From Promethearchaeia archaeon (lineage in GTDB: Archaea; Asgardarchaeota; Lokiarchaeia; Sigyniarchaeales; SOKP01), in the NCBI GenBank assembly GCA_029856105.1, contig JAHQWH010000015.1:1-64000 (forward strand): 64,000 nucleotides of DNA, written 5' to 3'. The notes under the pieces were generated by a model. The model made no database searches. It saw only the letters and a program-made list of their open reading frames with translations, and had not been told where the DNA came from. Each line of letters starts with the position of its first letter. Positions within the stretch are counted from its first letter, which is position 1. Below, piece by piece: positions 18,306-35,577 of the stretch. The translations under genes and the position numbers were made by a program.

Positions 18306-18458
18306 TCATCCTAAGCCAACGTTCAACTTGCGAGAGTAGATCTCTTCGCCGTCCTCTTTTACTACAGTAATGTGGGCGGCACACGATAGTCAACAGTCAT
18401 AACAACGGACTATCATTTCTAAGAGATTTACTACTCCTTCCGGAATTTCTTCGCTCAT
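18306..18458 (-). CDS. vhuU: VhuU: selenocysteine-containing C-terminal fragment of hydrogenase large subunit
   Basis: A 50-residue protein read through an in-frame TGA at 18390-18392 (residue 23). The core is RCYDCULSCAAH (U = selenocysteine), which aligns with the C-terminal DPCxxCxxH nickel-binding motif of NiFe hydrogenases: U23 and C26 replace the two nickel-ligand cysteines, and H29 is the maturation-site His. The neighbouring large subunit vhuA lacks exactly this motif. In Methanococcus the same split, selenium-containing subunit is VhuU. A 21-residue tail after H29 would be the part normally removed on maturation. ATG 18458 has a GTGA ribosome site. vhuU lies 27 bases after vhuA in the same operon, and a candidate SECIS follows the stop. 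Confidence 0.93.
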
Positions 18459-18485: not shown

Positions 18486-19790
18486 TTATTTAATCCAAGG
18501 GTCTGGTAATTTTAATCCTTCCAAGGCCTTATCTTCGAAGACTTGTTTAGCAACGTGCATTAATGACTTCTCGATTCCAGCGATATTGTGGTTTGTAGCA
18601 ACTAGAAGGTTTAACTTATTACAAATACCTTGATCGTTAGACCAGATATTATACAACAATATACCTCTAGGGGCTTCTACAACGCCTACACCGTTACCTT
18701 CTCGTGGTTCCACATCTAACGTCTTGCAATCGGGATTTACTATGTCAGGATCTTCAAGATATTGTGCTATTAATTCAATTGATTCTACTGCTTCAATAAT
18801 TCGAGCCCAATGATAGGCAAACGTGTGATGCGAAACATCGCCGATTTTGGCTTTCATTTCTTTTAAAGCCCCGTCAGCTAATGGTGTTGCCATTCGATCT
18901 GCACAATTAGTCATTGCTAGCGTATTTGCTCGATAAATGCCATCGGGATAACCTGCTGGTTTGTAATACATGTGGGTAGCATAAGAATGATCAGGAACAT
19001 GTTCTCCTAAAACATTTAGATAATCATGAACGTCGTAATCAATCTTTTTACCATCGGGAGTGACTATTCTAAGATCGCCATCGTAAATATCGTGTACTCC
19101 GTTTTTCGTCATACCAAGATAATAAGTTGGCACAACGCCTACATTAGCAACGACATCCCAATAATCAGTTACAACTTTTAGAGCGATATCAACTGTCTTC
19201 AACATGAAATCAACTTGCTCAGGAACCATTTTTAAAAACTTATCCCTTGCGGCTTCGTCCATCGGTTTTTTCATCCCACCGACTATAGCGGACACAGGAT
19301 GGACCGATTTTCCACCGATTTCAGCGCAGAGTTTTTGGCCGAAATCCATCATCTTCAATGCCATTGCTCCAACATCGGGCATCTTGTTTATCACGTGAAC
19401 GACATTCCTCAACGCTGGGTCTGCAAAAGGCCCTAAGAGGAAATCAGGTGCCGCTAACGCGTAAAAGTGCAACATATGCGATGAATACTGCTTCGCATTC
19501 ATTAACAATTGTCTAAGTTTATATGCAGCAGGAGGTATTTCAACGCCCCAAGCGTCTTCTACCGCTTTTGTTGGAGCTAAATGATGGGGAATAGGGCATA
19601 TTCCACAAATTCTTGGCGTAATCCTTGGTACATGCTCGCAATATCTGCCCTCGCAGAATTTCTCAAAAAATCTCGTTGAAGTGATATTAAATTGGGCGTC
19701 CTTTACCTTACCATCGTCTCCAATAACAATTCTTAATCCACCGTGTCCTTCTAATCGAGTGACTGGTTCAACTACTATTTCTTTTACCAT
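18486..19790 (-). CDS. vhuA: F420-nonreducing hydrogenase large subunit, truncated (VhuA/MvhA)
   Basis: 434 residues. Catalytic NiFe subunit that splits H2 in the cytosol. The N-terminal nickel motif RICGIC (C62, C65) and the family start VEPVTRLEGHGG are present. The protein ends at LKLPDPWIK without the C-terminal DPCxxC motif; that half of the nickel site is supplied by vhuU just downstream. The active site is thus built from two polypeptides. Adjacent vhuG supplies the electron-transfer subunit. vhuD/mvhD, the usual link to HdrA, is not in the operon. Confidence 0.95.
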   Translation of the reverse strand: MVKEIVVEPVTRLEGHGGLRIVIGDDGKVKDAQFNITSTRFFEKFCEGRYCEHVPRITPRICGICPIPHHLAPTKAVEDAWGVEIPPAAYKLRQLLMNAKQYSSHMLHFYALAAPDFLLGPFADPALRNVVHVINKMPDVGAMALKMMDFGQKLCAEIGGKSVHPVSAIVGGMKKPMDEAARDKFLKMVPEQVDFMLKTVDIALKVVTDYWDVVANVGVVPTYYLGMTKNGVHDIYDGDLRIVTPDGKKIDYDVHDYLNVLGEHVPDHSYATHMYYKPAGYPDGIYRANTLAMTNCADRMATPLADGALKEMKAKIGDVSHHTFAYHWARIIEAVESIELIAQYLEDPDIVNPDCKTLDVEPREGNGVGVVEAPRGILLYNIWSNDQGICNKLNLLVATNHNIAGIEKSLMHVAKQVFEDKALEGLKLPDPWIK

Positions 19791-27605: not shown

Positions 27606-27839
27606 ATGGTTGACATTACAGAAACTTTGGATGTTTCGGGCGAGGTTTGCCCTTATCCAGACGTAAAAAGTAAAAGAAAAGTTAAGAAAATGAATTCAGG
27701 AGAAGTTCTCGAGATTCTTGTCGATTATCCTCTCTCAGCTGAGAGGATTCCTGAGACAATGGAATCTTTAGGCCACAAAGTACTTTCTAACGAAAAAACA
27801 GGTACTTCGGCGTGGAGAATCCTGATTCAAATAAAATAA
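27606..27839 (+). CDS. tusA-like: TusA/SirA-like sulfur (or selenium) carrier protein
   Basis: 77 residues. TusA family: small protein that carries a persulfide (or selenide) on one Cys. The family signature is seen in DVSGEVCPYPDVKSKRKVKK, with Cys in CPYP. The C-terminal beta-strand and helix layout is complete. It is the first gene of a five-gene unit with a YedE-type permease and three DsrE-fold proteins (13 bases to the next gene). In bacteria TusA/YedF-like proteins paired with YedE have been tied to selenium as well as sulfur handling. Confidence 0.9.
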   Translation: MVDITETLDVSGEVCPYPDVKSKRKVKKMNSGEVLEILVDYPLSAERIPETMESLGHKVLSNEKTGTSAWRILIQIK

Positions 27840-27852
27840 GGTGAAAAAATAA

Positions 27853-28893
27853 ATGGAATTTATGTATGCTTTAATAGGTGGACTTATAGTTGGAGTCCTA
27901 TTTGGTTTCGTGTTGCAACGTGGAAGATTCTGTATGAATTCTGCCTTCAGAGACATAATCCTATTGAAAGAATTTAAATTAGCAAAAGCAGTAGTTATCG
28001 CGTTGATAACTCTAATGATCGGTTTCGCTATATTTGCTTTCGCTGGAGTAATTCAGTTAGCTCCAAAACCTTTAAAAATATGGGGTGCGGTTGTCGGAGG
28101 TCTAGTATTTGGTATTGGAATGGTTCTTGCAGCGGGATGTGCTAGCGGAACTACATATCGAGTAGGAGAAGGTATGGTGGGATCTCTCGTAGCTGGTTTT
28201 GGATTAACACTCGGAGCTTTAATGACTGGATTTGGCGTTTTATCTGATGCAAAAGTATTTTTGCAAAAGACAGTCATTGGAGAAGGTCCAGCACTTACGC
28301 TTTTTGGAGAATTTGGAGCATTAACCCCGATTTTTATGCTTATCTTAGGAATTGTTGGTGCTGTATTAACATTTTATTTCTGGGGATTACCTGTGCTTAA
28401 AAAGAAAATGGAAGCAAAAGAACCCTTAGTGAAATTTGACAACGCAGTTGAATCTATCTTTAAAAAAGCTTATCCTTGGTGGGTAACTGGAATCGTTATT
28501 GGAATAATCGGAACTGTTGCGTATATCGTTAGTAACGGAGTACTAGGTATTACTGGAGGATGGATGGATTTAAGTTTGTGGCTTACTACAGGAGATGTTG
28601 TTGCGTGGGCTGGTTTTATAATTCTTGGTGCTATCATTGGATCTTTCATTAGTGCTTATATCGGTGGCGAATTTAAAATTAGAGTTCCAAAAGATGGATT
28701 AACATTATTAAAACAATTGATTGGCGGAATTTTAATGGGTTTTGGCGCTGTAACAGCGATGGGATGTAACATTACTAACATTTTAGGTGGTGTTCCACAG
28801 CTTTCATTACATAGTATTATTACAGGAGCTTGTATAATGTTTGGCTCTTGGATAATGGCTTATCTTCTCTTCATGAGAGGAGACAAAGAATAA
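27853..28893 (+). CDS. yedE-like: YeeE/YedE-family permease (thiosulfate or selenium type)
   Basis: 346 residues, about ten membrane helices in two homologous halves. The conserved cysteines expected for TsuA/YeeE sulfur transporters are present: RGRFCMNSAF, LAAGCASGTTYRVGEG and TAMGCNITNILGG. TsuA imports thiosulfate by hydrogen bonding through these cysteines, and YedE relatives are proposed in selenium metabolism. The order TusA-YedE-DsrE supports import followed by hand-over of a reduced sulfur or selenium atom. Substrate cannot be decided from sequence. Confidence 0.9.
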   Translation: MEFMYALIGGLIVGVLFGFVLQRGRFCMNSAFRDIILLKEFKLAKAVVIALITLMIGFAIFAFAGVIQLAPKPLKIWGAVVGGLVFGIGMVLAAGCASGTTYRVGEGMVGSLVAGFGLTLGALMTGFGVLSDAKVFLQKTVIGEGPALTLFGEFGALTPIFMLILGIVGAVLTFYFWGLPVLKKKMEAKEPLVKFDNAVESIFKKAYPWWVTGIVIGIIGTVAYIVSNGVLGITGGWMDLSLWLTTGDVVAWAGFIILGAIIGSFISAYIGGEFKIRVPKDGLTLLKQLIGGILMGFGAVTAMGCNITNILGGVPQLSLHSIITGACIMFGSWIMAYLLFMRGDKE

Positions 28894-28915
28894 GATTTGG
28901 AGTTGACGAAAAAAA

Positions 28916-29278
28916 ATGGCTCGATTAGGAATTCTTTTCTTTGATGGACCGTACCAAGCGCAAGCTGCTGAAACGGTTGTTAAGATATCCAACGCGGCAT
29001 TAGATAAAGGAACTGATGTACGCATCTTTTGCTATATGGATGCCGTTAACGCTGTCTTAGGAAACCAGAAGAAAATTGAAGGTATCTTTAACATCGAAGA
29101 AGGATTTAGAGAGATTTTAAATAAAGGAGCCACCGTTAGATTATGTAATCTATGTCTTTTAGTCAGAGGCACTATGAAAAACTGTTTGACAAAGGAATGC
29201 GGCGACGTAAAGCGAGCAGGAACGCCTGATCTCGCGAAGATTATAGAAGAAACAGATAAACTTATAGTAATTTGTTAA
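28916..29278 (+). CDS. dsrE-like: DsrE-family protein with three to four cysteines
   Basis: 120 residues. DsrE fold, with the characteristic LGILFFDGPYQAQAAETVVKI start and a Cys-rich loop (RLCNLCLLVRGTMKNC, then KECGDV). DsrE/TusD proteins accept sulfur from TusA on a conserved Cys. It lies 22 bases after the permease and 11 before the next DsrE-fold gene. The extra cysteines could permit metal or multi-sulfur binding. Cytosolic. Confidence 0.8.
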   Translation: MARLGILFFDGPYQAQAAETVVKISNAALDKGTDVRIFCYMDAVNAVLGNQKKIEGIFNIEEGFREILNKGATVRLCNLCLLVRGTMKNCLTKECGDVKRAGTPDLAKIIEETDKLIVIC

Positions 29279-29289
29279 GGTGATAAAAA

Positions 29290-29634
29290 ATGGCAGAAGA
29301 GAAAAATGTAGTTATCCTTTTACGGCAACCACCTCATGGAACGCTTTATCCTGTCGAAGGATTGAGAATGACGGTTGCTGTTAGTGCTGACTTTGACCCA
29401 ATTACTATTGCAATCAACGAAGCTGTATATACCTTTACTAAGGACGTCGATAAGACGATGTATGCCTCGCACATCGAGTTCATAAAAAATATCGATTTAG
29501 ATATTTTTGTTGACAAAAAATCGCTTGATGAGCTTGGTCTTACAAAGGACGACCTTATAGACGATGTTGAAATCAAAGAACATGGAGAAATATTAAAAAT
29601 GATTGCGGATTCAACCGTAACCATACCATTTTAG
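29290..29634 (+). CDS. DsrF-like protein lacking cysteine
   Basis: 114 residues. The fold looks DsrE/DsrF-like (VVILLRQPPHGTLYPVEGLR, a Val-rich strand, then AINEAVYTFT). There is no cysteine at all, so it cannot itself carry a persulfide; a structural role in a heteromeric DsrEFH-type ring is likely by analogy. AGGTGATAAAAAATG start context. Adjacent spacing (11 and 15 bases) puts it firmly in the operon. Confidence 0.65.
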   Translation: MAEEKNVVILLRQPPHGTLYPVEGLRMTVAVSADFDPITIAINEAVYTFTKDVDKTMYASHIEFIKNIDLDIFVDKKSLDELGLTKDDLIDDVEIKEHGEILKMIADSTVTIPF

Positions 29635-29649
29635 GAGGATTGAAAAAAG

Positions 29650-29949
29650 ATGGGTAAAAAAGTGTTGTATTTTATTACAAGTGAAGATATTGCTGGTGTA
29701 GAGCTTGCTTCAGAACATACTGGAGAGGACGCAGTAACAATTCTTTTGCTTCAAAACGCTGTCTATTTTGCAAACAAAACTAATAAAATGGTTTCAAATG
29801 CTCTTGATAAAAACGTTACTATTGTTGCAAATAAAGAAGACGTAGAAGTACGTGGAATTAATAACTTCATATCTGATAAAATTAAATTAATTGCTTACGA
29901 TGAAGTAGTCGATTTAATTTTTGCGAACGATACCATTATCAATATGTAA
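29650..29949 (+). CDS. DsrH/TusB-like protein lacking cysteine
   Basis: 99 residues, the usual length for DsrH/TusB. VTILLLQNAVYFANKTNKMV is the family helix region, and the ending IKLIAYDEVVDLIFANDTIINM matches the TusB C-terminus. No cysteine, whereas many DsrH proteins have one. AGGAGG precedes the ATG. Last gene of the TusA-YedE-DsrEFH-like unit. Confidence 0.65.
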   Translation: MGKKVLYFITSEDIAGVELASEHTGEDAVTILLLQNAVYFANKTNKMVSNALDKNVTIVANKEDVEVRGINNFISDKIKLIAYDEVVDLIFANDTIINM

Positions 29950-30155: not shown

Positions 30156-31208
30156 ATGAGTATGAAAAAAGTGAGCTCAGATCTTATTAGGTTAGCCCAT
30201 GGAGCTGGTGGAGTGTTACAAGAAGAACTTATCAATTTTATTACGAAAAATATTACTTATAAAAACGTTAATAAAGGAATAGGGGTTGCGGAGTTGGACG
30301 ATGGGGCCACGATCCCTTTAGAGGAATACGAGCGCGAAATTGTGATTACTGCCGATGGGCATACTGTTTATCCGTTATTTTTTCCAGGGGGTAATTTGGG
30401 TAAATTGAGCGTTTGCGGTACCGTGAACGATTTGATAATGATGGGCGCTCAACCAATAGCGTTAACTTCAATTTTAATCATTGAAGAAGGTTTTAAATTT
30501 GAAAAGTTGGAAAAAATAGTAAATTCGTTTAATTTTACTTCAAAAGAAGCAAACATTGCGATTATAGCTGGAGATACTAAAATAATGCCTAAGGGAACTC
30601 TGAACGAGATGATAATGGCAACTACCGGGATTGGAATCAAAGATAAAAATATAAAAGTTTTAGATAGTAACTTAAAACCCGGCGATAAAATTATCGTAAC
30701 TGGGAGTATAGGAGACCACGGTACGGCGTTAATCGGCAGTCGAGAAGGATTAAATATATCAAGCGATTTGGAATCAGATGTTGGGTTTTTACTCGAAATT
30801 TATAACGTTCTTAAACAAGATATTAGTAATAATTATATTCACGCCATGAAGGACCCAACGAGAGGAGGGATAGCAGGAGCACTGAACGATTGGGCAAATA
30901 AATCAGATATAAGTGTTGTTTTAGAAGAAGAAAAGATTCCAATTAAAAAGCAAGTTAACGCAATCTGTGAAATGTTAGGGTTAGACCCTTTTACTATTGC
31001 TTGCGAAGGAAGAGCTCTCATGTCAGTAGACCCTATTAGAGCTGAAGAAATTTTATATAAAATAAAATCAACTTCAATGGGAAAAGACGCCGAGATAATA
31101 GGTATAGTTAAGGCAGACAATCCTAAAAGAGTACTTCTGAACACGATAGTAGGGGGGACCCGGTTCGTTGATATGCCTTTAGGGGAGCCAATACCGAGAA
31201 TTTGTTAA
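30156..31208 (+). CDS. hypE: Hydrogenase maturation protein HypE
   Basis: 350 residues. Converts the carbamoyl group on its C-terminal Cys to a thiocyanate, the source of the cyanide ligands of the NiFe site. N-terminal LAHGAGGVLQEELI, the metal/ATP-binding ELDDGATIPL and TRGGIAGALND, and the diagnostic C-terminus PRIC are all present, which separates it from the related SelD. It heads a five-gene unit with an unexpected protein (31272), hypD, hypF and an iron-sulfur protein. Confidence 0.95.
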   Translation: MSMKKVSSDLIRLAHGAGGVLQEELINFITKNITYKNVNKGIGVAELDDGATIPLEEYEREIVITADGHTVYPLFFPGGNLGKLSVCGTVNDLIMMGAQPIALTSILIIEEGFKFEKLEKIVNSFNFTSKEANIAIIAGDTKIMPKGTLNEMIMATTGIGIKDKNIKVLDSNLKPGDKIIVTGSIGDHGTALIGSREGLNISSDLESDVGFLLEIYNVLKQDISNNYIHAMKDPTRGGIAGALNDWANKSDISVVLEEEKIPIKKQVNAICEMLGLDPFTIACEGRALMSVDPIRAEEILYKIKSTSMGKDAEIIGIVKADNPKRVLLNTIVGGTRFVDMPLGEPIPRIC

Positions 31209-31271
31209 GATATTTATAGAAATTGAAATTTAAATCGTAAATAAAATAAACCATAACAATTTGAGAAAAAT

Positions 31272-31940
31272 ATGGATATAAGAAAGGAAGAATATCAAAA
31301 AGTTCTTGATAAATTTCCAGATGTTATTTCTGTTTGCGGAGATAATTTTCTTTTGCATTTTGAAATCAATACTGAAATTTTGCTAGAAGTTGATTTTAGA
31401 AAATATCCAAAAAAAATGAAAGCTTATTTAATTAATAATAAAAGAGATAAATTCAAACTCAGTAGGATCGTCTCCTCATTACGGTATTGGAAAGGACATT
31501 CAGCAGTCTCAGTTTTAGAAATAATAGATGAAATTCTTTTATTAATTGATAATATACAATTGAATCAAATTATGATTAAAAAAGATTTTCTTGAGGGATT
31601 AGTTGATATGTGTCAAAAGGGTCATCCCAAAAAAATGAAAGGGGTATTGGGAGTCCATAAAGGAGTTGTATCTGAATATATTATATCATCAAGAGCTTGT
31701 AATGATAGTATAAAAGATTTTAAGTTAATCAGGGCAACATGTAGTATTCCATTAGACTTCTCATATGAGGGAACTTTCATATCACGCCCATCAGGCAGTC
31801 TCTCAACTAATGAGAAATTAAACCAGATTTTTAAAAAACGGAGATTTACTATGCTTTTGGCACATCCTTATAATATTTCTGATAACATAAAGTGTTTTGA
31901 TACTTCTGGTCAAATTTTAGACCATATTATTATTGATTAA
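31272..31940 (+). CDS. Fusion of an RWD/E2-like domain and a JAMM-like pseudoenzyme
   Basis: 222 residues. Residues about 20-95 read like an RWD/UBC fold: three strands (NFLLHFEI, EILLEVDF, KKMKAYLIN), a YP motif (Y45-P46), W73 and a following helix (VSVLEIIDEILLLID); no Cys lies where an E2 has its catalytic one. Residues about 100-222 align with archaeal JAMM domains: DMCQKGHPKK where HPxE is expected, GTFISRPSGSLSTNEKL in place of the HxHPxxxxxPSxxD motif, and a closing FTMLLAHPYN...KCF. Glu, both His and Asp of the zinc site are replaced, so it is predicted inactive. It is inside the hyp operon (64 and 86 base gaps). Function unknown; a ubiquitin-like binding scaffold is inference. Confidence 0.6.
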   Translation: MDIRKEEYQKVLDKFPDVISVCGDNFLLHFEINTEILLEVDFRKYPKKMKAYLINNKRDKFKLSRIVSSLRYWKGHSAVSVLEIIDEILLLIDNIQLNQIMIKKDFLEGLVDMCQKGHPKKMKGVLGVHKGVVSEYIISSRACNDSIKDFKLIRATCSIPLDFSYEGTFISRPSGSLSTNEKLNQIFKKRRFTMLLAHPYNISDNIKCFDTSGQILDHIIID

Positions 31941-32026
31941 AATAGAGTGAAAATTATGGAAATTTTTGATAACCAAGATTTTCAAAGAAGATTAAACTGA
32001 ATTTAAAAAAAAATGAGTAAACCAAA

Positions 32027-33118
32027 ATGGATATACCAGGAATTAAAATTTTAAGAAGTAAAGAATTCACAGATAAAATAATTAAATCAATAAATAGAAC
32101 TGTAAAGGAAATAAAAAAACCAGTTAAGTTTATGCACGTGTGTGGCACTCACGAACACACTCTTTCGAAATATGGGCTAAGACCGTTGTTACCTAAAGAG
32201 ATTGAGATCCTTTCCGGCCCGGGGTGCCCTGTCTGCGTATGCCCCGCTGCAGATATCGACAAGGCAATTGAGCTTGGGAAACGAGACGACACTATAATAA
32301 CTACTTTTGGGGACATGATACGCGTCCCAGCTTCCAACCTTTCCTTAGCAGAATTAAAAGCAATGGGAGCGGATGTAAGAATCGTATATGGCCCTCACGA
32401 TGCGGTCGAAATTGCGAGAGAGAATCCCGATAAAGAAGTAATTTTTTTTGCCATTGGTTTTGAAACTACAGCCCCCCTAGTCGGTTACGAAATAAAAAGC
32501 GAACCCCCCTCTAATTTTTCGGTGATTTGCGCTCATAAGCTCATTCCCGCAGCGTTGGAACTATTAATAAGTCAATCACAACTAAGAATTGATGGTTTTA
32601 TTTCGCCAGGGCATGTATCTACTATAATTGGTTTAAAACCATTTAAAATATTTTCAGACGCTTATAAAGTACCAAATGTAATCGCCGGATTTGAGCCTAA
32701 CGATGTTTTGTTAGGTATTTTAATGCTACTCCAACAAATTAAGAACAAAAAGTTCGAAACTTTGAACGAATATTCGAGAGTAGTAAAACCAGAAGGAAAT
32801 AAAATCGCTCAAAATGTTATCTCAGAGGTTTTTGAATCCGTTTCCTCCCCTTGGAGAGGGATTGGGAGAATTCTTGATGGGGGTTTAGCAATACGAGATA
32901 AGTACGAAAAATTTGATGCTGATAAAAAATTCGATATTAAAATTGAAAAGTCGCAAGATATCCCACCGGGATGTTCGTGCCATTTAATAATGGTAGGTAA
33001 ACTATATCCAAACGAGTGCGAGCTCTTTGGCGAAGTGTGTACTCCACTCAATCCTATTGGCCCATGTATGGTTTCTCAAGAGGGTACATGTGCAATATTT
33101 TATAATTATCATAGATAG
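32027..33118 (+). CDS. hypD: Hydrogenase maturation protein HypD
   Basis: 363 residues. Iron-sulfur scaffold on which the Fe(CN)2CO unit is assembled with HypC. Motifs: FMHVCGTHEHT, SGPGCPVCVCP, FFAIGFETTAP, and a C-terminal Cys-rich [4Fe-4S] region (PPGCSCHLI, then four further Cys up to EGTCAIFY). The length is normal. It is followed by hypF after 53 bases. Confidence 0.95.
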   Translation: MDIPGIKILRSKEFTDKIIKSINRTVKEIKKPVKFMHVCGTHEHTLSKYGLRPLLPKEIEILSGPGCPVCVCPAADIDKAIELGKRDDTIITTFGDMIRVPASNLSLAELKAMGADVRIVYGPHDAVEIARENPDKEVIFFAIGFETTAPLVGYEIKSEPPSNFSVICAHKLIPAALELLISQSQLRIDGFISPGHVSTIIGLKPFKIFSDAYKVPNVIAGFEPNDVLLGILMLLQQIKNKKFETLNEYSRVVKPEGNKIAQNVISEVFESVSSPWRGIGRILDGGLAIRDKYEKFDADKKFDIKIEKSQDIPPGCSCHLIMVGKLYPNECELFGEVCTPLNPIGPCMVSQEGTCAIFYNYHR

Positions 33119-33171: not shown

Positions 33172-35577
33172 TTGAACGATCAAAGAACTGTAGAAATTAA
33201 TATCACAGGTATAGTTCAAGGTGTAGGCTTCAGACCGTTTTTGTATAATCTAGCTCGATCCTTAAACCTAACTGGATTTATATTAAACCGAGGGAATGCG
33301 GGAGTTCGATTAGTTTTGCAAGGTTTATCTCAATTGATTGACCAATTTTTCGAAGAAGTTAATCTTAAAAAGCCAAAAATTTCATTTATTGAAAAAATTG
33401 AGTATAAGGATTTAGATCCCAAAATACACTATAATAACCTTGAAATAAGAAAGAGTGAGCAAGGACGAGGAATTAGTTTAACTCTTCCACCAGATATTGC
33501 AATTTGCGACGATTGTTTAATAGACATGAATAATCCCAAACTACCGAAGTATTACAACTATCCATTCATAGCGTGCGCCGTTTGCGGACCGAGATTTACA
33601 ACGGTTAAGGATTTACCATACGATAGAGAGCGAAGTACGATGGTAAATTTTCCTTTCTGTAATAAAGCAGAACCAGAATCTTGCATACAAGAATATTCGA
33701 ATTTTAATAATAAGAGATTTCACGCTCAAACATTTGCTTGTTCTGTTTGCGGTCCTAATTATCAGCTTTACGATAAAGGAAAAAACTCTATTAAAACAGA
33801 TTCGATTGACGAGATATTAAAGATAACTACAAAAAGGATAAAACAAGGAGAAGTTGCGGCAATCAAGGGAATAGGTGGAGTCCATTTAGTTTGCCTTGCT
33901 AACGACGATAAAATAATTCTAGAGCTACGCAGGAGGAAAGGGAAGAGAAAACATAAACCTTTTGCTTTAATGGTTCCAAATTTAGAAATTATTGAGGATT
34001 ACTTTAGCATTTCAGAAAGAGAAAGGGAACTTTTATCTTCTTTTCGCAGACCAATTGTGGTTTTAGAGAAAAATAAAAACTTTAATAAATCTGACATAAG
34101 CGAATTCGTGGCTCCCGGTTTAAACAACATCGGAATTATGCTTCCATATTCAGGTATTCATTATTTACTTTTTGACCATATTGGAAAACAGCCATTAATT
34201 TATACAAGTGGGAACAAATCGAATATTCCTATGGCACTTGAAAACGAAAAGATATTTGATCAACTCAACAATTTAGCCGATTTCTTTCTACTTCATAATA
34301 GACCCATATACCAACGAGCAGACGATAGTGTGCTAAGAGTTCATAACTACAAAGTGAAGCTGATTAGAAGGTCGCGAGGTTATGTACCAGAATATTTACC
34401 ATTACATTTTGAAGTTAAAATCCCAAGTGCTATAGCTACAGGTCCAGAATTAGCAGTGACAGGTGCTTTATTGCGAAGAAATCGAATTTTCCAGACTCAA
34501 CATATTGGAAATGTAACGCACCTTGAAACATACGATTTTTTAAAAAATGCGCTTTTTCATATGAAAAAATTGCTTCAGATAAAAGATTCTGAAATAAAAT
34601 TTATCGCTTGCGACGCTCATCCAGCTTTCGTTACGACTAAGCTAGCAAAGGAGCTATCTGAACTATTAAACGTCAATTTATACCGTATCCAACACCATTA
34701 CGCTCACGCTTTAAGTTTAATGGCGGAAAATAAAATTGCATTAGACGAAAAAATCGTTTGCATAAGCACAGATGGAGTTGGTTACGGCGAAGACGGGAAT
34801 GTTTGGGGGGGTGAAATCTTATTAAGTTCTTATCACGGTTATACACGTCTCGGTCATTTAGAAAATCAGCCTATGATTGGAGGAGACCGATGTACTAAAT
34901 ATCCCGCTAGAATGACGTCTTCCATCGTCCTTAACGCTCTCGGTGTTGAAAAATCAGTAGAAGTATTCAAACAGATTGCCTTAGAAAACGATTTGGAGCA
35001 TAAAAGCACGGAATTGAAAACGATTATTTCTCAATTTGAGCGCGCCGATTATCAATTTCCTAACGAAAATATCCCATTAACAAGTTCCACCGGTAGAATC
35101 TTTGACGCTATTTCATATATTCTAGGAGCTTCGAAATTAAAAAGTTATAGAGGTGAACCTGCTATGAGGCTAGAGGGTTTGGCGTCGAAAGGAAATCCAG
35201 ATAAGATTAAATTAGACATTAAGTATTCGAAGAAAAATGGAATTTATCTTATCAATACTTCAGATTTAATTTTAGACGTAATAAATTTACTAGAAATTAA
35301 AGATTCCAAAAGACAAGATATTGCCGCAAAATTTCAAGTAGAAATTGGATTAGCATTTGCGAAAGTTGCGATTAAAATTGCCAAAGAAAACGATATAGAA
35401 ATGATAGGATTAACTGGTGGCGTTGCTTATAACGATGCTTTTTCAAAGGCGATAAAAGAACGAATCATTAAAGGAGGATTTAGTTTCATTGAACACAATA
35501 TAGTGCCACCTGGGGACGCGGGAATAAGCGTAGGTCAATTAATTGGGGGAACCTTCAAGTATAATAAAAATATTTAA
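33172..35577 (+). CDS. hypF: Carbamoyltransferase HypF
   Basis: 801 residues. Uses carbamoyl phosphate and ATP to carbamoylate HypE. Domains in order: acylphosphatase (GIVQGVGFRPF, about 1-90), two zinc fingers (CDDCLIDM, CAVCGPRFT, CSVCGPNY, about 110-195), YrdC-like (about 200-390) and Kae1-like carbamoyltransferase (IQHHYAHALSLMAEN, about 410-800). All are complete. Start codon is TTG 33172, giving MNDQRTVEINITGIVQG; this fits the domain boundary well. Confidence 0.95.
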   Translation: MNDQRTVEINITGIVQGVGFRPFLYNLARSLNLTGFILNRGNAGVRLVLQGLSQLIDQFFEEVNLKKPKISFIEKIEYKDLDPKIHYNNLEIRKSEQGRGISLTLPPDIAICDDCLIDMNNPKLPKYYNYPFIACAVCGPRFTTVKDLPYDRERSTMVNFPFCNKAEPESCIQEYSNFNNKRFHAQTFACSVCGPNYQLYDKGKNSIKTDSIDEILKITTKRIKQGEVAAIKGIGGVHLVCLANDDKIILELRRRKGKRKHKPFALMVPNLEIIEDYFSISERERELLSSFRRPIVVLEKNKNFNKSDISEFVAPGLNNIGIMLPYSGIHYLLFDHIGKQPLIYTSGNKSNIPMALENEKIFDQLNNLADFFLLHNRPIYQRADDSVLRVHNYKVKLIRRSRGYVPEYLPLHFEVKIPSAIATGPELAVTGALLRRNRIFQTQHIGNVTHLETYDFLKNALFHMKKLLQIKDSEIKFIACDAHPAFVTTKLAKELSELLNVNLYRIQHHYAHALSLMAENKIALDEKIVCISTDGVGYGEDGNVWGGEILLSSYHGYTRLGHLENQPMIGGDRCTKYPARMTSSIVLNALGVEKSVEVFKQIALENDLEHKSTELKTIISQFERADYQFPNENIPLTSSTGRIFDAISYILGASKLKSYRGEPAMRLEGLASKGNPDKIKLDIKYSKKNGIYLINTSDLILDVINLLEIKDSKRQDIAAKFQVEIGLAFAKVAIKIAKENDIEMIGLTGGVAYNDAFSKAIKERIIKGGFSFIEHNIVPPGDAGISVGQLIGGTFKYNKNI

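Follow-up and report, generated by a model that had tools for sequence, protein, structure and literature searches.

An E2-variant–JAMM fusion protein lacking the JAMM metal-site motif is encoded between hypE and hypD in a Lokiarchaeial genome

Results

Gene content of the hyp locus

The window analyzed here, 64,000 nucleotides of a Lokiarchaeial contig (JAHQWH010000015.1), contains a hydrogenase maturation locus in which a gene of 222 codons, termed gene X, lies between hypE and hypD (Table 1). An open reading frame had been assigned to this position in the initial annotation and its boundaries proved exact, with the short strings HPKK, FISRP and TNEKL reported for it all present in the X protein. 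Scans of Pfam, NCBIfam and PADLOC with the single X protein gave nothing useful, two PADLOC matches (E 0.0015 and 0.018) being weak and taken as chance, and scans around X for sigma-70 (bacterial) promoters and for terminators were uninformative. Upstream of hypE lie genes for TusA, a sulphur transporter (Sulf_transp) and DsrE/DsrE/DsrH (27606–29949), a run also found upstream of hypE and hypD in several relatives, with X present or absent. Elsewhere in the window, a NiFe-hydrogenase large subunit gene (18486–19790, minus strand) is missing the C-terminal CxxC motif at its end, and just downstream a 50-residue frame in which TGA is read as Sec (18306–18458, minus strand) carries the motif RCYDCULSCAAH; this frame looks like a separate VhuU-type selenopeptide carrying the CxxC motif of the large subunit.

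Table 1. Features of the hyp locus and of gene X (window coordinates) and loci of intact relatives (coordinates of the locus named)
Feature	Position	Strand	Evidence
hypE, 5' neighbour of X	30156..31208	+	TIGR02124 E 4e-112
Imported segment: hypE 3' end, spacer and X	31039..31940	+	Diagnostic sites, fourfold-site identities, sliding identity
hypE–X spacer, 63 bp	31209..31271	+	Equal length in six carriers without HepT-MntA; near-alike across carriers
Gene X, UEV/RWD domain and metal-site-less JAMM domain, 222 aa	31272..31940	+	Structure matches, dN/dS
X residues 1–97, E2-variant (UEV/RWD) fold without catalytic Cys	31272..31562	+	AlphaFold pLDDT 86.8; VIA
X residues 99–222, JAMM/MPN fold; loop 140–161 poorly predicted	31566..31937	+	AfJAMM Z 16.4; Foldseek E 3e-7; family profile against AfJAMM E 5e-24
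K121, replacing catalytic Glu	31632..31634	+	K in 11/11 degenerate; E in 21/21 intact
C143	31698..31700	+	11/11 degenerate; 0/21 intact
C157, within a short insertion confined to the degenerate class	31740..31742	+	11/11 degenerate
I170-S171-R172, replacing zinc ligands H-S-H	31779..31787	+	I, R in 11/11 degenerate; H, H in 21/21 intact
N180-E181-K182, replacing S-x-D	31809..31817	+	N in 11/11, K in 8/11 degenerate; S, D in 21/21 intact
hypD, 3' neighbour of X	32027..33118	+	TIGR00075 E 8e-144
hypF, after hypD	33172..35577	+	TIGR00143 E 1e-223
Intact UEV-JAMM/TtuA-NcsA-like overlap	L044 3912-5608
Intact UEV-JAMM/TtuA-NcsA-like overlap	L048 7431-9229
Intact UEV-JAMM/TtuA-NcsA-like overlap	L049 7656-9352

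The X protein joins an E2-variant domain to a JAMM domain without its metal site

The full-length model of X had a mean pLDDT of 81. Residues 93–222 superimposed on AfJAMM (AF2198, PDB 1r5x/1oi0) with a Z score of 16.4 and 1.5 Å over 102 residues, further JAMM/MPN proteins ranked next, and several MPN-minus pseudo-DUB subunits were among the structural matches. A phmmer comparison of the single X sequence with AfJAMM gave E 0.005, and the family profile extended this likeness (Table 1). Fold and alignment are thus shared with AfJAMM across the whole C-terminal half, but AfJAMM keeps the Glu, both His, the Ser and the Asp of the motif E-x(n)-H-S/T-H-P-x(6)-S-x2-D and lacks an E2-like domain, whereas in X all five residues are replaced (E121K, H170I, H172R, S180N and D182K). 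The initial description of a degenerate JAMM domain running along the entire C-terminal half is therefore borne out. Loop 140–161, which holds C143 and C157, was predicted with a pLDDT of about 40 and may carry another chemistry.

Residues 1–97 were also modelled alone using AlphaFold (pLDDT 86.8), and the best 50 VIA matches of the N-terminal half were all E2/UEV structures (best Z 9.1, 86 residues aligned, 2.5 Å); matches to this domain included the Tsg101 UEV, Vps37A and BRE. Its only cysteine, C22, is unique to X among 32 aligned sequences. No significant match appeared in Foldseek's own ranking for this half, and no convincing match was obtained with an N-terminal domain profile against PDB sequences (HMMER) or in hhalign comparisons with the three E2 proteins of the same genome, so the E2-variant assignment is a structural one. 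A weak Pfam match to BRE (E 0.014) occurs in one member of the family. An RWD/UBC-like N-terminal half without catalytic Cys, as first proposed, agrees with the predicted structure; of the structural comparisons suggested at that stage, those of the JAMM half succeeded by Foldseek as well, while those of the N-terminal half succeeded by VIA but not in the Foldseek ranking. The domain resembles the UEV/RWD domains of Tsg101/Vps23, Vps37A and BRE in having an E2 fold without the catalytic Cys, and differs from them in being short (about 97 residues), fused to JAMM and without a sequence-level match.

Intact and degenerate members form two classes of one family

Homologues of X were found in 49 of 97 related genomes searched, these being Lokiarchaeial MAGs with a few outliers, and viral contigs yielded no relative. 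An alignment of 32 sequences comprised 21 intact members, all with a complete E-H-H-S-D set, and 11 degenerate members with K-I-R-N and mostly K at these positions, the first four residues being fixed. Many intact members score above the Pfam Prok-JAB cut-off. The degenerate class forms one clade (support 100/100). By sequence comparison, X appears to descend from a UEV-JAMM family of Lokiarchaeia in which the remaining members retain the zinc-site motif.

Values of dN/dS were 0.1–0.3 in the JAMM half, where dS reached 1 or above, and 0.2–0.7 in the E2-variant half; the reading frame was open in every full-length copy of X. X is therefore, by sequence, a maintained pseudoenzyme under purifying selection. 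The loss of every catalytic residue would be expected if X were the intact enzyme in decay, but the low dN/dS in the JAMM half indicates that X is not decaying; together with the open frames it refutes such a reading, the probability of which we regard as negligible, and the degenerate class has moreover acquired invariant residues of its own. These residues (K121, I170, R172, N180, C143 and C157, each fixed in 11/11 degenerate members and found in 0/21 intact ones) might instead mark a rebuilt pocket, with K121 and R172 forming an anion site and C143/C157 a metal, Fe-S or redox site. Both cysteines, however, fall in the loop of low pLDDT and fixation in 11 related sequences can stem from one old change, making a rebuilt pocket very unlikely.

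In archaeal tRNA thiolation the sulphur carrier is a ubiquitin-like protein, which a UbaA/MoeB-type E1 activates; carriers of this kind are acted on by JAMM proteins, PfJAMM1 among them. Three genomes belonging to another family (g15) have the intact UEV-JAMM gene starting inside the end of a TtuA/NcsA-type tRNA-thiolation gene, which it overlaps by 4 bp (Table 1); genes for a UbaA/MoeB-like E1 and for Pus10 lie nearby. Given the chemistry of archaeal thiolation, this proximity to TtuA/NcsA-like and E1-like genes suggests that the ancestral role of the UEV-JAMM family was likely that of a Ubl isopeptidase. Neighbourhoods of intact members within the family to which the window belongs had no common partner except an aconitase-type gene in one genus.

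The genome containing the window encodes three E2-type proteins, several E1-like proteins and seven recognized JAMM domains, so that a ubiquitin-type system on which X could act exists; one intact UEV-JAMM copy lies on the same contig, 118 kb from X. Loss of zinc ligands from a JAMM fold under purifying selection is the same type of change as is seen in MPN-minus proteins (Rpn8, CSN6, Abraxas/KIAA0157, eIF3f/h). X could then be an MPN-minus partner whose heterodimer activates or targets a catalytic JAMM protein, as Rpn8, CSN6 and Abraxas/KIAA0157 do for Rpn11, CSN5 and BRCC36; activation by a pseudo-DUB is established for BRCC36–KIAA0157 (PMC4579573), and the genome encodes further JAMM proteins. 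However, X has no linked JAMM gene, and the closest candidate partner, the intact UEV-JAMM paralogue, was not found in 8 of the 11 genomes bearing X and so is not an obligate partner. An obligate dimer with this paralogue was rejected on co-occurrence, and the broader proposal of an MPN-minus partner, although a serious alternative to the adaptor reading, is improbable. X further differs from MPN-minus subunits, which are obligate partners of MPN-plus proteins and carry other extensions, in its E2-variant domain and in having no obligate intact paralogue. Mutual exclusion of the intact and degenerate classes within the genus was non-significant and confounded by kinship (Fisher p 0.08).

The hypE–hypD junction is a variable slot

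The initial annotation had tied X to hydrogenase assembly or turnover and had proposed examining whether the order hypE-X-hypD is conserved. This order was present in only eight genomes, all of one genus, and most relatives with hypE and hypD are without X; HypD was found in 83 of 97 related genomes against 11 with the degenerate class. Three orthologues are located away from hyp: that of G001 is followed by unrelated genes, and those of G064 and G068 adjoin an actin-like gene.

Among 48 genomes with both genes on one contig, the hypE–hypD gap was 15–64 bp in about 20, in which the slot is empty, exactly 751 bp in five X carriers, 822 bp in the window and 780–797 bp in ten genomes, nine of nine inspected of these ten holding an antisense gene pair. 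In G013 this pair encodes a HepT-like protein (PF01934) and a nucleotidyltransferase (PF01909) of the HepT-MntA toxin-antitoxin type, and in both G013 and G003 it shares the slot with X. Since genomes differ in having the slot empty or occupied by X, by HepT-MntA or by both, the junction is a variable slot.

The antisense HepT-MntA pair ends within the hypE stop codon (L051 8123-8760) and occurs in several Lokiarchaeial genera, being found in the slot also at L150-L154, L156, L159, L161 and L165. Unrelated cargo is present in other hyp intergenic spaces (L162-L167 and L150-L158), for example a gene for a 290-residue protein that several genomes carry in antisense orientation between hypD and hypF. 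In another genus, genome G035 carries an intact UEV-JAMM gene two genes after hypD (L072 4338-7942), apparently a second, independent approach of the family to hyp.

A dedicated accessory role for X in NiFe-hydrogenase maturation, for example as a scaffold for the HypE–HypD–HypC handover, would account for its being kept in the hyp operon. X lies on the hyp strand immediately 5' of hypD in eight genomes, with gaps to hypD of 6–18 bp in seven, and the intact relative in G035 also lies close to hypD. Against this stand the rarity of the X class relative to HypD, the near adjacency of hypE and hypD in about 20 genomes, the three orthologues outside hyp, the acceptance of HepT-MntA by the same slot and the arrival of X in the window by recombination of flanking hypE (see below), and we consider a dedicated maturation role unlikely. 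The retained place of X before hypD in eight genomes is equally not required by a purely accidental location and counts against one.

X was imported into this locus by recombination

The hypE and hypD genes of the window are closest to those of G004, G010, G014, G022 and G012, the slots of which hold HepT-MntA without X. In comparisons of the window with G013, G002, G017 and G003, fourfold-site identity was 0.78–0.86 for X but only 0.41–0.50 for hypE and hypD. Values for X and hypE were similar among these four donors, indicating that slow change at synonymous sites does not by itself account for the high identity of X. Diagnostic sites in hypE are of the sister-group type up to about 31025 and of the donor type at 16 of 17 sites between 31039 and 31157; in hypD they are again of the sister-group type with six exceptions only. 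The breakpoints lie near 31011–31039 on the left and between 31940 and 32061 on the right, delimiting a segment of roughly 0.9–1.0 kb that includes the last ~170 bp of hypE. The right junction is marked by the X–hypD spacer, which measures 86 bp in the window and 15 bp in five other carriers.

These data show that X and the 3' end of hypE reached the window by recombination. Retention of an ancestral X in the window with loss in the sister group was rejected, because in the same genome pairs the fourfold sites of X agree far more closely than those of hypE and hypD. The enlarged spacer also contains a 14-codon frame, MEIFDNQDFQRRLN (31957–32001), with no counterpart in the relatives compared, which may be a recombination scar. 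Given that X sits between hyp genes in some relatives only and arrived by recombination, the link to hydrogenase assembly or turnover proposed at the outset is doubtful and, judged by the presence of the gene in hyp loci of related genomes, largely fails.

Discussion

On balance it is probable, if far from certain, that X is a non-catalytic, ubiquitin- or Ubl-binding pseudo-deubiquitinase composed of a UEV/RWD domain and a dead JAMM domain and carried as an accessory cassette in a variable slot. Such a cassette nature would explain why X lies between hypE and hypD. Its intact relatives probably remove a ubiquitin-like modifier of SAMP/TtuB type, and X would have arisen from their family and lost the zinc site. 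It would then serve, with no catalytic activity of its own, as an adaptor or competitor that binds ubiquitin or a Ubl by its UEV fold and by the JAMM face that once received substrate; it is probably co-transcribed with hypD and would form no general part of hydrogenase maturation. We infer ubiquitin or Ubl binding, an adaptor role and lack of catalysis as the most likely properties of X, and the non-catalytic ubiquitin-type role initially suggested stands as a natural reading of the two folds and the lost catalytic set. A more specific proposal, that X recognizes a ubiquitin-like tag on hydrogenase or Hyp proteins through the altered pocket (K121, R172, C143 and C157), we hold to be distinctly unlikely.

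Pseudo-DUBs are known mainly from eukaryotic complexes. Inactive E2-like and JAB domains do occur in one system in bacterial E1-E2-JAB operons of the polyUbl/inactive E2-RWD type 6e (PMC1779556), but in these the inactive E2-like domain is either separate or a fusion with polyUbl, and the JAB domain is attached to E1, in contrast to the E2-variant–JAMM fusion of X; the passages on those operons in that paper describe no direct E2-variant–JAB fusion. Asgard ubiquitin-ESCRT proteins, from the same archaeal group as X, have ubiquitin-binding UEV domains, and these sit in Vps23-like proteins (PMC9192718); JAB and Rpn11 are absent from the text of that paper. Among the papers searched there was no earlier report of an E2-variant/RWD domain joined to JAMM in archaea, no link between ubiquitin-like systems and hydrogenase maturation and no archaeal JAMM domain with the metal site lost yet selection kept. 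As far as we have found, the intact Lokiarchaeial UEV-JAMM family is undescribed and, as far as checked, the pseudo-DUB architecture of X is new to archaea.

Were X to read a mark on hydrogenase or Hyp proteins, it would be the first link of a ubiquitin-type system to NiFe-hydrogenase assembly or turnover. The hyp locus shows that membership of a conserved operon does not prevent a gene from being exchangeable cargo, and intact and dead UEV-JAMM proteins, as a natural pair in Asgards, would allow a test of whether the pseudo-DUB principle is older than eukaryotes.
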